Below are positions 51,855 through 58,381 of a DNA stretch of 64,000 bases, one piece after another. The notes below the pieces were generated by a model. It saw only the letters and a list, made by a program, of their open reading frames with translations, had not been told where the DNA came from and did not search any database. Each line of letters begins with the position of its first letter. Within the stretch, counting starts at the first letter, position 1. Origin of the DNA: Promethearchaeota archaeon (GTDB lineage: Archaea; Asgardarchaeota; Lokiarchaeia; Sigyniarchaeales; Promethearchaeaceae); NCBI GenBank assembly GCA_016933055.1, contig JAFGBS010000004.1, positions 124,001 to 188,000 of the forward strand, read 5' to 3'. Made by a program: the position numbers and the translations under genes.

Positions 51855-53306
51855 TTATTCTTCAGTTTTATGTACTTGCTCTCCCCAATAGTGTTCCTTG
51901 GGATTTGGGTCTAACGTTGTTGTAATCTCGGAAATATTTTCTTCAATACCTTGCATAATTAAATATCCCGAGTTTAACTCTCTATCTGTGATCTCCCCTG
52001 CTATATTGGTAGTCATAATTTCTTTTACTTCAGTTATATTTCGTGTATGCCCTAATGTCCAAATCAATTTAGCATACGCTGCTGAGGGTAGCATATTATC
52101 TCCCTCAATTACTCCTAAAGCTAACATATCTCTACCTGTTTCGTATACTCGGAGATTTGTGTACCCAAAAAGAGGCTCTACAACAATAACTACTGGTATT
52201 TCTTGTTCTTGGGCACGTTCTAAACCTGGGAAGAAATCACTTGGGACATGTCCCAATCCGGTTCCTAAGATTACCACTCCATGGTATCCCAAATCAATGA
52301 TAGAGTTAAGTATATCTGGATTACAACCAGGATAAGAATATAGGATTGCCACCTTAGGATCAATTTTTGCATCAAGATAAGTATCTTCCGTGTTCCCACG
52401 TTGTTTTATATCAGTTTTAAAAAACATTATATTCTGTTTTGAGTCGATCATTCCTAACGGGATATCACTTAGCGTTTTGAATGCATCTCGTCTACTTGAA
52501 TGCATTTTCCGAACACGAGTTCCCCGATGGATAAGATTATAAGTATCAGATGTATTACCATGCATGCATACAACCACTTCTGCTAAATCTGCATATCCTG
52601 CAATAGTGCTTGCATTGATAATATTCATAGGCCCATCGCTAGACGGTCTATCTGAACTTCTTTGCGACCCCACGATGACAATGGGGGCTGCAAGATCTTT
52701 AAAGAAAAAGGACAATGCTGATGCCGTAAATGCCATTGTATCAGTTCCATGACCAATAATTACCCCACTTGCCCCATTATGAAATTCTTGGAGAATGGCT
52801 TCAGCAGTTTTTACCCAATATTCTGGTTTGAAGTTTTCAGAGAGGATGGAATAAATCTTTTTAGGAGTCAGATTGCAAATGTTCATCAGTTCTGGAACCG
52901 CACTAAAAAGTTCCTCTGGGGTGAATGCTGGTAAAACAGATCCTGTTCGATAGTCTAAACGAGATGCAACTGTCCCTCCCGTTCCCAGTAATGATACATT
53001 TGGTAATTCCTTTTTAGTTTTTACATCAATTTCAGGTAGATGATAGTCTCCCTTCTGGTATCCGATTTCGGTGATTTTGCATTCATCGGTAATTTTTACA
53101 CCAATGTTATAACCAGTATCAACTTTTACGACCAAATAATCTTCGGCAGTGTGTTCACTACGAGGAAGTACCACACCCTCATAAATAGAATTTCCTCTCA
53201 CTACTTTTACTACAGACCAAACCCCTATCTTTTCCCTAATTAGTCTTTCTCGTAACTTCGATCTGTATCCCGTAGGTTCTCGCACTGAATTTTTCTTGTT
53301 TGGCAT
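51855..53306 (-). CDS. gatD: GatD, asparaginase-like subunit of Glu-tRNA(Gln) amidotransferase, copy 1
   Basis: Releases ammonia from glutamine or asparagine for GatE. The N-terminal GatD-specific beta domain (about 30-90, GNSIYEGVVLPRSE) is followed by an L-asparaginase fold with catalytic motifs GTGGTVASRLDY, GHGTDTMAF and RKMHSSRRDAF. The frame begins with a GTG that overlaps the gatE stop; ATG 53306 with AGGTG upstream is the better start. It follows the tail-less GatE (copy 1). A second gatD-gatE set lies immediately upstream on the same strand; the copies differ at many positions, so this is an old duplication or a transfer. Confidence 0.9.
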   Translation of the reverse strand: MPNKKNSVREPTGYRSKLRERLIREKIGVWSVVKVVRGNSIYEGVVLPRSEHTAEDYLVVKVDTGYNIGVKITDECKITEIGYQKGDYHLPEIDVKTKKELPNVSLLGTGGTVASRLDYRTGSVLPAFTPEELFSAVPELMNICNLTPKKIYSILSENFKPEYWVKTAEAILQEFHNGASGVIIGHGTDTMAFTASALSFFFKDLAAPIVIVGSQRSSDRPSSDGPMNIINASTIAGYADLAEVVVCMHGNTSDTYNLIHRGTRVRKMHSSRRDAFKTLSDIPLGMIDSKQNIMFFKTDIKQRGNTEDTYLDAKIDPKVAILYSYPGCNPDILNSIIDLGYHGVVILGTGLGHVPSDFFPGLERAQEQEIPVVIVVEPLFGYTNLRVYETGRDMLALGVIEGDNMLPSAAYAKLIWTLGHTRNITEVKEIMTTNIAGEITDRELNSGYLIMQGIEENISEITTTLDPNPKEHYWGEQVHKTEE

Positions 53307-53311
53307 TTTTC

Positions 53312-55033
53312 TCACACCTTCTTTGGTTCTAGATATTTCTGCGCTGCAAAATCATAGATATTATTTTTTTTCTTTAATCCTTGCTGAATTACTATTTTTA
53401 TCTCTTCCACGCCCATATCGGAGGTGTTTACTCCCTTTCGACGAAGATGTTTCAAAGTTTCCGTCAAATAAGAGTAAGCTATTATAGGTTTTATGTTATA
53501 ATCTTTAATTAATATCAAGAAGTCATCCAAACGGTTTTCATGGACTAAATTCTGCAATTGATTGAATTTTAATCCATATTTTTCCGAAAATTCTTTTTCT
53601 AACTCCCATGGACGTTTCCCAACCTTAGATTTTAAGGATTGAATCCTTTGTAATTCTAAATCTAACGCAGGAGTATCAGTATCGGGATATAAGCGATCTT
53701 TTCCATGAATTACTCGTAAAAACTCCGAATTTCCGTTAGGTAGTAGTCTGCGTGTTTCTTGTGGAACACCATCTAGTGCATATTTCAACCGTTCAATAAT
53801 TTTTTTCATTGCATGAATTGTCCACGAATTTTTTCCCATTGCAACACAATACGCATCACGTTCCGTTATATCCAACACATCACAAATTTTTCCATCTAAA
53901 CTCTTATCGATCAATGGAAATAAAAAGGGTAATTTTTTATTTCTTCTACGTTGGGCGTTATCAGAAAGTTCATCTGAATGATACATGTGCTCTACCAGAA
54001 TTCCGCTGATTAAACTTGCTTTTTCAAATACATCTTGACCAAAATCCTTTCCTGGTTGTATTTCTAATCCTAAGATTCCTTTAAATTTGGGCAACCGAAT
54101 TGCCATGACGCTTAATCCTTTTGGAATGCTATCAGAGGGAAATTCTTCTGTGATTTCATAATAAGTATGTTCTAAATGTGACTTTTCAAAACCTCGCTCC
54201 TTTAATATCCCTGCAATCTGAATTAACATATCCTGTCTGACTATTTCATGCCTCGCAAGTGTATCAAACATAGAAAGATCTTGAACTCCCTTAATTTCAA
54301 CCCGATCTCCGCCTTTAATACTGATATTTACATCTTGACGAACCGAACCTATGCCGGTTCTTCCGATTCCACTAAGTCTTAAGGTTAATCCGATGATTTC
54401 TCCTAGTTTTTTCAAATCCGTAGGATTTGTGCAATCTAGATGGTCCGTAATCACCTCCACCAAGGGAATTCCCAATCGATCCAGATTATAATACACCGTA
54501 CGTCCGAAATTCTCCGTTTTTAGTTTTCGGGCTGCATCCTCTTCTACAGTTAAATTTGATATTCGCACCCTTTTCCCGTTCACCTCTACCCACCCATCTC
54601 TGGCTACAATTAAAGTACGCTGAAAACCGGTTGTGATAGAGCCATCCAAATATTGTTTCCGGGCTACTATCCCAACATCCACCAACGCTGAGCAATTTAG
54701 CCAGTGTGCTAGTTGATACCCCGCATAAATTGCCTCTAAGTCTGGCCAAAACGGTGGTTGTTCATCTTGTTCGTATAAACATGTGCATTCCGTATAAGCA
54801 TGATAGATAACACGATATCCTTTCTCGTATTCAATTAACATTCCCTCATCAAAATCACCCATTTCTCCTAATACAGGACGGAAACGCCGTTCGAACATAT
54901 AATCAGGAGTCTCCGTTCGTAATTCTGGTTTACAATTACAAAATAGTTTCCGCTTAGATTGGATTTGGTGGTGGACTTCTAAACCAGCTCTAAAACCAAT
55001 CTCTTCAAATGAAATTGTTTCGGGATCGAGCAT
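53312..55033 (-). CDS. gatE: GatE-like amidotransferase subunit, copy 1, lacking the C-terminal tail domain
   Basis: Kinase/amidase subunit of the GatB/GatE family. Core motifs are kept: GLEVHHQIQSKRKLFCNC, CTCLYEQDEQPP, DGSITTGFQRT, DRLGIPLVEVITD, RQDVNISIKGGDRVEIKG, and the AspRS-like insertion typical of GatE. At 573 residues it ends shortly after the helical domain (RRKGVNTSDMG); the YqeY-like tail of about 90 residues, present in copy 2, is missing. That tail helps recognise the tRNA. The frame ends in a normal stop, so the shape is not due to a window edge. It may be a specialised paralog rather than a broken gene. Confidence 0.85.
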   Translation of the reverse strand: MLDPETISFEEIGFRAGLEVHHQIQSKRKLFCNCKPELRTETPDYMFERRFRPVLGEMGDFDEGMLIEYEKGYRVIYHAYTECTCLYEQDEQPPFWPDLEAIYAGYQLAHWLNCSALVDVGIVARKQYLDGSITTGFQRTLIVARDGWVEVNGKRVRISNLTVEEDAARKLKTENFGRTVYYNLDRLGIPLVEVITDHLDCTNPTDLKKLGEIIGLTLRLSGIGRTGIGSVRQDVNISIKGGDRVEIKGVQDLSMFDTLARHEIVRQDMLIQIAGILKERGFEKSHLEHTYYEITEEFPSDSIPKGLSVMAIRLPKFKGILGLEIQPGKDFGQDVFEKASLISGILVEHMYHSDELSDNAQRRRNKKLPFLFPLIDKSLDGKICDVLDITERDAYCVAMGKNSWTIHAMKKIIERLKYALDGVPQETRRLLPNGNSEFLRVIHGKDRLYPDTDTPALDLELQRIQSLKSKVGKRPWELEKEFSEKYGLKFNQLQNLVHENRLDDFLILIKDYNIKPIIAYSYLTETLKHLRRKGVNTSDMGVEEIKIVIQQGLKKKNNIYDFAAQKYLEPKKV

Positions 55034-55084
55034 TTTGCGTCACATTAGTAGAGAATTATTGGAATAATAATGATTTTATAAGTT

Positions 55085-56446
55085 TTATTCTGTCCTTCCT
55101 TGAAGAATCCTATATCCTCGTATCTCTTCGCGTGGAAGGATCTCTCCTGCTATGTTTGTGATCATTAGGGTTCTAATTTCATCTTTCGATTCACATTCCC
55201 CTAGGATCCAGCAGAGTTTCGCGAACGCTGTTTCGGGGATCATGTCTGCGGGGATAACTCCTAAATCCTTCAATTTTCGTCCATTAGAATATACGTCCAT
55301 TCCAGTAAATCCCCATAATGTTTGTAAAGCCATAACTACTGTAACGTCTTCGGAAGTCGCACGGTCAATCGCTTTAAAAGTATGATTTGGAGCGTGTCCC
55401 AACCCCGTACCTGCAAAAACCATTCCTTTATATCCCTTATCAATATAAAAATCTATTATTTCTGCAGACATGCCGGGATAGATATGCACTAATGCACATT
55501 TGGACTCTATTTTTGTGGAGCACACTGTATCAACATCCGAATTCACCTCAGATTTACGAACCAGATTATTTTTAAACCAAGTGATTTCACCATGATCAAT
55601 TTTTCCAAGAGGAATATCTCCAATTGTTTTAAATGCATCACGGGCAGAAGAATGCATTTTTCGTACACGAGTCCCTCGGTGAATATATCCAAAAGTATGG
55701 GAAGAACTACCAAGCATACATAACACGACTTCTGCTATATCTCCGTTTGCAGCCAACTGAGTTGCATGAATCAGGTTCATAGCAGCATCAGATGACGGGC
55801 GATCCGAAGATCTCTGACTACCCACAAAAACTACGGGTATTTTAAGATTTTTAACTAAGAAGGATAATGCCGCCGTGGAATATCCGATGGTATCGGTACC
55901 GTGCCCAATTACTACTCCATCTATCTCTTTGTTACTTAAAGAAGCAACTTCTTTTGCTAGCCTTAACCAATTTTTAGGCTCCATATCCTCGGAGAAAATT
56001 TTAAACACAATTTTTGTATCCAAGTTACAAATATCAGCAAGTTCTGGCACAGCGGCATATAATTCATGGGGTTGAAAAGCTGGTATCACTCCCCCTGTCA
56101 CATAATCTAGTCGAGACGCAATTGTGCCTCCAGTTCCTAATAAAGTCACATTGGGTTTAGCTCTATCTTTAGGAACTGAAACCCCTTTGAATTCCACTTT
56201 CATGGGGGGGTTTTTACCTACAACCCGAACAGTATCCAAATCTTGCACTTTTATCCCAATATTATACCCATTTTTCAACTTGATCTCGATATACCCATCC
56301 TCTGCAAACTGATTCCTGGGTAATATTATTCCTTGAAAGATTGAATTTCCTTTTTTGATCTCCACCTTATCCCATGCTTCAATATCATGTTCTTTGAAAA
56401 ATTTCTTGGATATATGCTTGTAACCTTTAGGTAAATTTGAAGGCAT
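55085..56446 (-). CDS. gatD: GatD, copy 2
   Basis: Second GatD, 453 residues. N-terminal beta domain (KKGNSIFQGIILPRNQ), asparaginase motifs GTGGTIASRLDY at about residue 104-115, GHGTDTIGYSTAAL and RKMHSSARDAF. It lies next to the full-length GatE (copy 2), starting directly after that stop. This pair is the more conventional one and most likely makes Gln-tRNA(Gln) from Glu-tRNA(Gln), needed where no glutaminyl-tRNA synthetase exists. Confidence 0.92.
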   Translation of the reverse strand: MPSNLPKGYKHISKKFFKEHDIEAWDKVEIKKGNSIFQGIILPRNQFAEDGYIEIKLKNGYNIGIKVQDLDTVRVVGKNPPMKVEFKGVSVPKDRAKPNVTLLGTGGTIASRLDYVTGGVIPAFQPHELYAAVPELADICNLDTKIVFKIFSEDMEPKNWLRLAKEVASLSNKEIDGVVIGHGTDTIGYSTAALSFLVKNLKIPVVFVGSQRSSDRPSSDAAMNLIHATQLAANGDIAEVVLCMLGSSSHTFGYIHRGTRVRKMHSSARDAFKTIGDIPLGKIDHGEITWFKNNLVRKSEVNSDVDTVCSTKIESKCALVHIYPGMSAEIIDFYIDKGYKGMVFAGTGLGHAPNHTFKAIDRATSEDVTVVMALQTLWGFTGMDVYSNGRKLKDLGVIPADMIPETAFAKLCWILGECESKDEIRTLMITNIAGEILPREEIRGYRILQGRTE

Positions 56447-58381
56447 CTATTCTTCCTCCTTTTTTAATAAATTAGTCATTTCTGATTTGACTACTTGAGA
56501 GACTATCTTTCCGTCTATTTTTCCCCTTACTTCTTTCATTACTTCACCCATTATGGGACCCATTGCCCCCATCTGACGTTCACGAATAAGAGAAACAAAG
56601 CTTGGCATCAATGACTGCACGATCTTTCTTAGTTCTTCAATACTCATCGAGGTTATGTCCATAGTTTGCATAGCATCTTTAATTGTGGACTGGGGCTGGT
56701 CACACAAATATGCTAATATCTCTTCAATTGCCTCCTTTGCTATCAGTTTTTTTTCAAGTAACTCAAAAATGCGCACAAAATGGGAATCTTTTAGATTCTC
56801 TACTTCTTTTCCATCTCTTCTGAGAGTTTTAATCGTTTCTAATAACGTGCTAACGATGATTGTGGGTTTTCCAGAATATACTTTAAGGATTTCTTCCAAT
56901 AGTTGAAGATTTCCATCAAGAGTGAGTTGCTCTAATGACTCGTGAGGAATTTTATATCTTTTCTCGAACTCCTTCATTACTTCCCAGGGATAGCGTGGAA
57001 GATTTGCTTGGATTTGTTTTAATTTTTCAGAAGAGATGGGTATTTCTCTTGAATCTGTATCGGGATATAATCGTTTTGCACCATGTAATTCGCGTAAGAA
57101 TTCCGTATTTCCATCCTCTAAGGCTTTACGGGTCTCTTCTGGTACTCCCTCCAAAGCTTTGATTAACCGATCTCTAACAATTTCAAATGCTTGAAACAAT
57201 CGGTCAGGCTTTCCTAAAATCAATACAAATAAATCCTTTTCATCACATTTCAAGGACTTCTTAATATCTAAGATTTCTGATTCGGAAAATTGATACTTGG
57301 AGAGAACTTCATCGCTATGAATTAATCCTTTTAAACCAGTTATTGATCCCATTTTACTAGCAATTTCTGTACCAAATCTACGCCCTTCTTGAATTTCTTC
57401 TCCCCAAAGAGCGTGCATATTTGGTACCCTCCATCCCCAAACCAATTTCCCCTTTTTTACTCCGTTACGAACAAATTTACATTTAGTTTCTTGGAATATT
57501 TCCGTTATATCTAAAGGATTGTCAGTAAAACTAGTGGGTGTCAATTTTCGCTTTAACATTTCATTGCGTATATCAAGAAGCGCTAATTGCCGAGTCACCT
57601 CATTTCGAATTAAAATGGGAATCCAATCTAATTTTTGTACCCCTTTGATCTCGATACGGGCTCCTCCCTTTATGGAAACATTGAGATCTTGACGGATAGC
57701 TCCTAAAATCTTCTTTACCTTTCCTGTACTTCTCAGAAGGATACCTATTCGCAATGCAGCTAAGCGTGCTTCTTCTGGTTCATTAATATCGGGTGCAGTT
57801 GTAACCTCTACTAATGGAATTCCTAAACGATCTAATCGAAATTGGATCATATTTTCTTTCTCTCCGGATCTTCTACAAGAATCTTCTTCAAGACAAAGTA
57901 ATTCAATACCAATGTTTTTGTGTTCAGAAATTGGAATATCTCCATTAATCCCAACTATGGCAGTCCTTTGAAAGCCTGCAGGAACACTTCCATCAACATA
58001 GTTTTTCCTACATACATGCAGCTCATCTACAAGACTTACATTAAGCAATAAACCAATTTCTAAAGCGATATCAATTGCTTCTGTATTACATGGAAAAGGA
58101 GGGGTCTCATCAATATCATATGTACACGTACAATCCGTAAACCCCTCGTATAACACAAGATTATTTTTTTTGAATTCTACTAGCATAGCAGGATCAAAGG
58201 ATCCTTCTTCACCTAATACCGGTCGAAAAGTTCGTATCAGAGTATAATCTGGAGGATTTTGCCCCCGTAGCGTGTTGTTGCATGCACAAAATAATTTAGT
58301 TTGAGTATCTAATTGCTGATGAATTTCGATTCCACACTTTAGACCGAGTTTTTTATAGTCGTACTCACTAGCATTTGGCAT
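56447..58381 (-). CDS. gatE: GatE, copy 2, full length
   Basis: Full-length archaeal GatE (about 644 residues). Core blocks: GLKCGIEIHQQLDTQTKLFC, CTCTYDIDETPP, DGSVPAGFQRT, DRLGIPLVEVTTAPDI, RQDLNVSIKGGARIEIKG and the AspRS-like insertion, then an intact YqeY-like tail (from about residue 550: LLEKKLIAKEAIEEIL ... RQMGAMGPIMGEVMKEVRG). The frame opens three codons earlier at a TTG; ATG 58381 is preferred. First gene of the four-gene gatE-gatD-gatE-gatD run. Confidence 0.93.
   Translation of the reverse strand: MPNASEYDYKKLGLKCGIEIHQQLDTQTKLFCACNNTLRGQNPPDYTLIRTFRPVLGEEGSFDPAMLVEFKKNNLVLYEGFTDCTCTYDIDETPPFPCNTEAIDIALEIGLLLNVSLVDELHVCRKNYVDGSVPAGFQRTAIVGINGDIPISEHKNIGIELLCLEEDSCRRSGEKENMIQFRLDRLGIPLVEVTTAPDINEPEEARLAALRIGILLRSTGKVKKILGAIRQDLNVSIKGGARIEIKGVQKLDWIPILIRNEVTRQLALLDIRNEMLKRKLTPTSFTDNPLDITEIFQETKCKFVRNGVKKGKLVWGWRVPNMHALWGEEIQEGRRFGTEIASKMGSITGLKGLIHSDEVLSKYQFSESEILDIKKSLKCDEKDLFVLILGKPDRLFQAFEIVRDRLIKALEGVPEETRKALEDGNTEFLRELHGAKRLYPDTDSREIPISSEKLKQIQANLPRYPWEVMKEFEKRYKIPHESLEQLTLDGNLQLLEEILKVYSGKPTIIVSTLLETIKTLRRDGKEVENLKDSHFVRIFELLEKKLIAKEAIEEILAYLCDQPQSTIKDAMQTMDITSMSIEELRKIVQSLMPSFVSLIRERQMGAMGPIMGEVMKEVRGKIDGKIVSQVVKSEMTNLLKKEEE

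Follow-up and report, generated by a model that had tools for sequence, protein, structure and literature searches.

A diverged second GatDE amidotransferase of Asgard archaea with an eroded or missing GatE tail

The genome of the Asgard archaeon studied here encodes two GatDE amidotransferases, the second of which, GatDE2, is, judged from its sequence, a real, conserved and diverged GatDE subfamily. Both sets lie in the window, the whole 64,000-nucleotide stretch of DNA that was analysed. The original prediction of two complete GatD-GatE sets in tandem agrees with the ORFs, which form an uninterrupted minus-strand run, gatE1-gatD1-gatE2-gatD2, at 58390-51855, with four of four frames intact. 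NCBIfam names their products, in order, GatE, GatD, GatE and GatD. According to the coordinates, all four genes are probably one transcription unit. GatE1 and GatE2 are 38% identical, GatD1 and GatD2 46%, and the two gatE genes are the sole GatB_N-family genes of the 3.76 Mb assembly. The locus contains the following features.

58390-56447, minus strand: GatE1, 647 aa, the native full-length GatE with GAD domain and GatB_Yqey/YqeY tail (NCBIfam, Pfam, tree)
56446-55085, minus strand: GatD1, 453 aa, the asparaginase-fold glutaminase partner of set 1 (NCBIfam, Pfam, tree parallel to that of GatE1)
55034-55084: gap of 51 bp between set 1 and set 2 (from ORF coordinates)
55033-53312, minus strand: GatE2, 573 aa, tail-less, of a separate clade, with the catalytic core intact
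54434-54502, minus strand: active-site loop signature of GatE2, residues 178-200 (RTVYYNLDRLGIPLVEVITDHLD), where N replaces R/K and one residue is inserted, next to catalytic Glu193
53315-53401, minus strand: residues 545-573 of GatE2, a short C-terminal replacement for about 90 tail residues of relatives (aligned against the other species of the genus and relatives that have the tail)
53315-51855, minus strand: GatD2, 486 aa, partner of GatE2, active-site motifs intact, overlapping the end of gatE2

The second set looks like a member of the GatDE family. GatE2 scores 405.9 bits with TIGR00134, above the cut-off of 319.55, and 450.4 bits with NF003107, narrowly below the cut-off of 456; its same-genus orthologue is above both GatE cut-offs. 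With the GatB model TIGR00133 it scores 94.5 bits, below the cut-off of 314.8, and a family search of the 3.76 Mb assembly found no GatB. GatD2 contains the GatD_N domain and scores 518.8 bits with TIGR02153 (cut-off 324) and 515.6 bits with NF003217 (cut-off 310). The catalytic residues of GatE2 (E19, H21, E164 and E193) are present, and the equivalents of Mth E13, H15, E157 and E184 are conserved in all GatE2 alignment rows covering them. Similarly, the TGGT, GHGTD and RKMH motifs of GatD2 are intact in the alignment with 1zq1_A, so that the asparaginase motifs are kept as had been claimed. The AlphaFold2 model of GatE2, a single chain, has a pLDDT of 89.6, and its top matches among solved structures are GatE 1zq1_C and 2d6f.

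What distinguishes GatE2 is its C-terminus and one loop of its active site. Pfam detects GatB_Yqey (78.6 bits), YqeY and GAD in GatE1, and the catalytic domain only in GatE2. GatB_Yqey has no Pfam match in GatE2 or its same-genus orthologue, and the alignment ends before the tail, which bears out the description of a 573-residue protein that keeps its core and has lost the YqeY-like tail. A hidden, frameshifted tail is ruled out because gatD2 begins before gatE2 has ended, which leaves no room for it. The tail is eroded across the whole E2 clade. The GatB_Yqey score is 76-79 bits in GatE1; among GatE2 proteins it is 35-37 in family f17, 24 or no match in f12 (which includes Heimdallarchaeum endolithica), 20 in f11 and 15 in one genus of f1, the family of this genome, which includes Harpocratesius. 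Another f1 genus and f15 have no match, and in the present genus the domain is absent. Within the E2 clade the mean identity of the catalytic part is 0.62 (0.50 in E1) and that of the tail is 0.21 (0.37 in E1), and the tails are without the usual GAMGPLMG...RGKxDGK motif. The tail-less form is thus real but limited to this genus, while the wider cassette normally carries a degenerate tail. The loop change is clade-wide: the residue that is R or K in 45 of 45 E1 sequences and D in GatB is N in 19 of 19 E2 sequences, followed by one inserted residue beside catalytic Glu193.

The tail-less form, whose conservation in related genomes had been left to be looked for, recurs with intact frames in an independent assembly of a second species of the genus (AMARA_1, contig SDNX01000009.1, G006). 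Between the two species GatE2 is 79% and GatD2 87.5% identical, and both change more slowly than GatE1 (74%) and GatD1 (76%). The dN is 0.15 for E2 and 0.10 for D2, with dS near saturation. The title of the AMARA_1 record, 'Lokiarchaeota archaeon AMARA_1' (L033), looks outdated, as the genome falls in this genus, in the Harpocratesius family.

In trees of 65 GatE and 59 GatD sequences, GatE2 and GatD2 each form one fully supported clade, and the branching of the two trees is largely parallel. GatE1 and GatD1 of f1 cluster with the remaining GatE and GatD of their own class. Monophyly of all f1 GatE1 and GatE2 is rejected (AU test, p 1.3e-46), and with it a recent duplication. The original prediction would have been undone by frame damage or a very recent copy, and neither was found. 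GatE2 proteins of f1 and f17 are 62-64% identical, the GatE1 proteins only 42-45%, which points to horizontal transfer between the two families. The GatE2-GatD2 pair looks like a distinct Asgard GatDE subfamily, old and horizontally mobile, and not a fresh duplicate.

Of 228 Asgard genomes, 44 carry GatE2 by our count, and they fall in five families: f1 (6 of 8), f17 (8 of 9), f12 (22 of 23), f15 (7 of 12) and f11. A genome-wide scan with this GatE2, using strict peptide patterns, detected near relatives in Asgards alone. Next to every GatE2 with a readable neighbour lies a clade-matched GatD2, except in G143, where no GatD2 was found on the contig examined. Apart from this pair, the neighbourhood comparison found no conserved neighbour gene that suggests a pathway. 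In Harpocratesius gatD2 has as its neighbour a distinct asparaginase-like gene, whose 359-aa product is 35% identical to GatD1 (L050:5211-6287). An intron-bearing tRNA-His gene lies directly upstream of gatE2 in Heimdallarchaeum (L200:8528-8618); no such gene was found next to gatE2 in other genomes, although a relative in f12 has a tRNA-His at a distance of about 2.8 kb. The gatE genes of f19, f20 and f16 share an interruption at one invariant site, DE|TPPF, where each has an insert, about 30-51 nt long, that contains a strong inverted repeat (L215:3680-3900, L216:3500-3720 and L214:3380-3560), and the protein frame is restored when the insert is dropped. The inserts resemble archaeal pre-mRNA introns, a bulge-helix-bulge being unproven.

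To our knowledge GatDE is regarded as the single, essential archaeal path to Gln-tRNA. The premise of a single GatDE as the archaeal norm has to be qualified, as several Asgard families have two. GlnRS above the TIGR00440 cut-off was found in 26 Asgard genomes, all of f12, f15 and f17 (L174-L181; G093:C1:1224390-1225988 in Heimdallarchaeum endolithica, CP084167); f1 has none but keeps GatDE1. The core of the Asgard GlnRS is of bacterial type, scoring about 650 bits against E. coli GlnRS and about 440 or less against longer, probably eukaryotic GlnRS chains, and in Heimdallarchaeum about 95 N-terminal residues can be aligned to archaeal GluRS. With GatDE1 or GlnRS accompanying GatE2, a second source of Gln-tRNA is nearly always there; about six f12 and three f15 draft genomes yielded no GlnRS and no GatE1, perhaps because they are incomplete. 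According to a 2022 review all known archaea are without GlnRS and use the GatDE route (PMC9499178).

The single tRNA(Gln) recovered in this genome has the anticodon UUG, A1:U72 and A73, and, in our reading, a D-loop two bases smaller than that of tRNA(Glu). A second, dedicated tRNA(Gln) was considered and set aside, since this sole gene recovered is ordinary; a few tRNAs were left unresolved. The known GatDE acts specifically on Glu-tRNA(Gln) and also reads A1:U72 (PMC9499178), and in both GatDE and GatCAB the tail domains are matched to tRNA(Gln) through its smaller D-loop (PMC4810234). Removal of YqeY from yeast mitochondrial GatB, a result on GatB and not on GatE, abolished the amidation of Glu-tRNA(Gln) (PMC4027206). 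Given these properties of the tail and the canonical tRNA(Gln), GatDE1 should supply Gln-tRNA, and the tail-less GatDE2, although conserved, is expected by analogy to be poor at making it.

The leading explanation, which is about evenly poised between right and wrong, is that GatDE2 has diverged functionally, its most likely reaction being the amidation of glutamate on an acceptor that has diverged or is relaxed. As its conserved catalytic residues and fold suggest, GatD2 would hydrolyse glutamine and its ammonia would go to GatE2, which would carry out activation with ATP and then amidate the glutamyl side chain on an acceptor. With the normal YqeY tail lost, and absent altogether in this genus, GatE2 would recognise at most the acceptor end and not the elbow of a tRNA. 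The acceptor could be an aminoacyl-tRNA read only at its end or, less likely, a non-tRNA glutamyl ester. With GatDE1 intact and one tRNA(Gln) bearing the usual GatDE marks, GatDE2 would not be the housekeeping enzyme. Divergence is supported by the altered clade-wide loop, the eroded tail on a conserved core, the second source of Gln-tRNA and the yeast GatB result. The suggestion of a different tRNA or a non-tRNA acceptor is partly supported, as regards divergence, and the substrate is putative. Several points count against this explanation: the cassette has no conserved neighbour that would be a partner, the yeast result concerns GatB, the drafts mentioned above yielded no other source of Gln-tRNA, and the tRNA(Gln) of Heimdallarchaeum, which has GatDE2 and GlnRS and no GatDE1, keeps A1:U72, A73 and the small D-loop, so that GatDE2 may still serve tRNA(Gln) there.

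A rather doubtful alternative makes GatDE2 a backup that still amidates Glu-tRNA(Gln) in the ordinary way and removes what is left of it; the tail would be dispensable, and selectivity would come from GatDE1 or the acceptor stem. The GatE and GatD model scores, the intact catalytic residues and fold, and the retention of A1:U72 in tRNA(Gln) here and in Heimdallarchaeum are consistent with it, and GatDE would be of use even next to GlnRS if the archaeal GluRS still mischarged tRNA(Gln). However, the active-site loop is changed clade-wide, the homologous yeast enzyme is inactive once the tail is lost, and a tail-less enzyme would risk amidation of Glu-tRNA(Glu).

A mixed complex, in which GatE2 and GatD2 assemble with GatE1 and GatD1 so that the tail of set 1 holds the tRNA and set 2 gives catalysis or ammonia, is unlikely. 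No more than about 8 kb separates the sets in six of the six f1 genomes with both, in varying orientation and spacing, and here they form one tandem run. The parallel trees, however, indicate that GatE2 and GatD2 co-evolve with each other, and in f17 both sets are present and unlinked, while f12 has GatDE2 without GatDE1, so that GatE1 is generally unnecessary.

It is very unlikely that GatDE2 replaces GatCAB as an Asp-tRNA(Asn) amidotransferase. GatB is found in none of the 44 GatE2 genomes and in most of the relatives in the class, and some bacteria retain an amidotransferase beside AsnRS and GlnRS for asparagine synthesis (PMC4206432). The absence of GatB is, however, largely accounted for by AsnRS, which is present in this genome and most GatE2 genomes, and many Asgards have neither GatB nor GatE2. 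Furthermore, the AspRS of this genus has Lys at position 85, as against Pro in two non-discriminating enzymes aligned; a homologue of asparagine synthetase A is present in two f1 genera; and the known GatDE, as noted above, has a different substrate. As to the setting of AsnRS, its gene adjoins gatE1-gatD1 in Harpocratesius (L050:14121 region), and in f3 genomes with GatDE1 it lies beside gatB, which places AsnRS, GatCAB and GatDE in one genome (G015:C36; G041:C1:1906200-1911039). An artefact, recent duplicate or decaying gene, for which the confinement of tail loss to one genus might speak, is hardly credible, being refuted by the intact frames in two independent assemblies, the slow change with low dN, and the AU test.

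Functional divergence of GatDE2 can be joined with its distribution into a history that is possible and offered tentatively. GatDE2 would be a neofunctionalised glutamine-dependent amidotransferase that has moved off Glu-tRNA(Gln), freed when a bacterial-type GlnRS entered Heimdall-lineage archaea; the two-gene cassette would then have spread to GatDE1 genomes, and in this genus it would act, making no contact with the tRNA elbow, on another aminoacyl-RNA or a non-tRNA glutamyl acceptor. A GatDE subfamily with conserved catalytic residues and a worn tRNA tail beside a second GatDE or GlnRS contradicts the single-route picture of archaeal Gln-tRNA. Among the archaea nearest to eukaryotes, it offers a natural test of which portion of the enzyme selects the tRNA.

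GatDE2 shares with the archaeal GatDE of known structure (PDB 1zq1 and 2d6f) the two-gene GatE-GatD architecture, the GatD_N and asparaginase folds, the catalytic residues and the fold of the GatE core. It differs in forming a separate clade, in its altered active-site loop, in its coexistence with a complete GatDE1, and in a GatE2 whose GAD domain is below Pfam detection and whose tail is degenerate, or absent here. With the GatB subunit of GatCAB, GatE2 has in common the GatB/GatE catalytic domain and the EVH, EED and LE motifs, but it pairs with GatD and not with GatA and GatC, and its loop residue is N, as against D in GatB and R or K in GatE1. Among experimental systems, the yeast mitochondrial GatFAB truncated for YqeY is the best analogue of the missing tail (PMC4027206). 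The yeast form was made by engineering and has no activity, whereas the GatE2 of this genus occurs naturally and is maintained by purifying selection.
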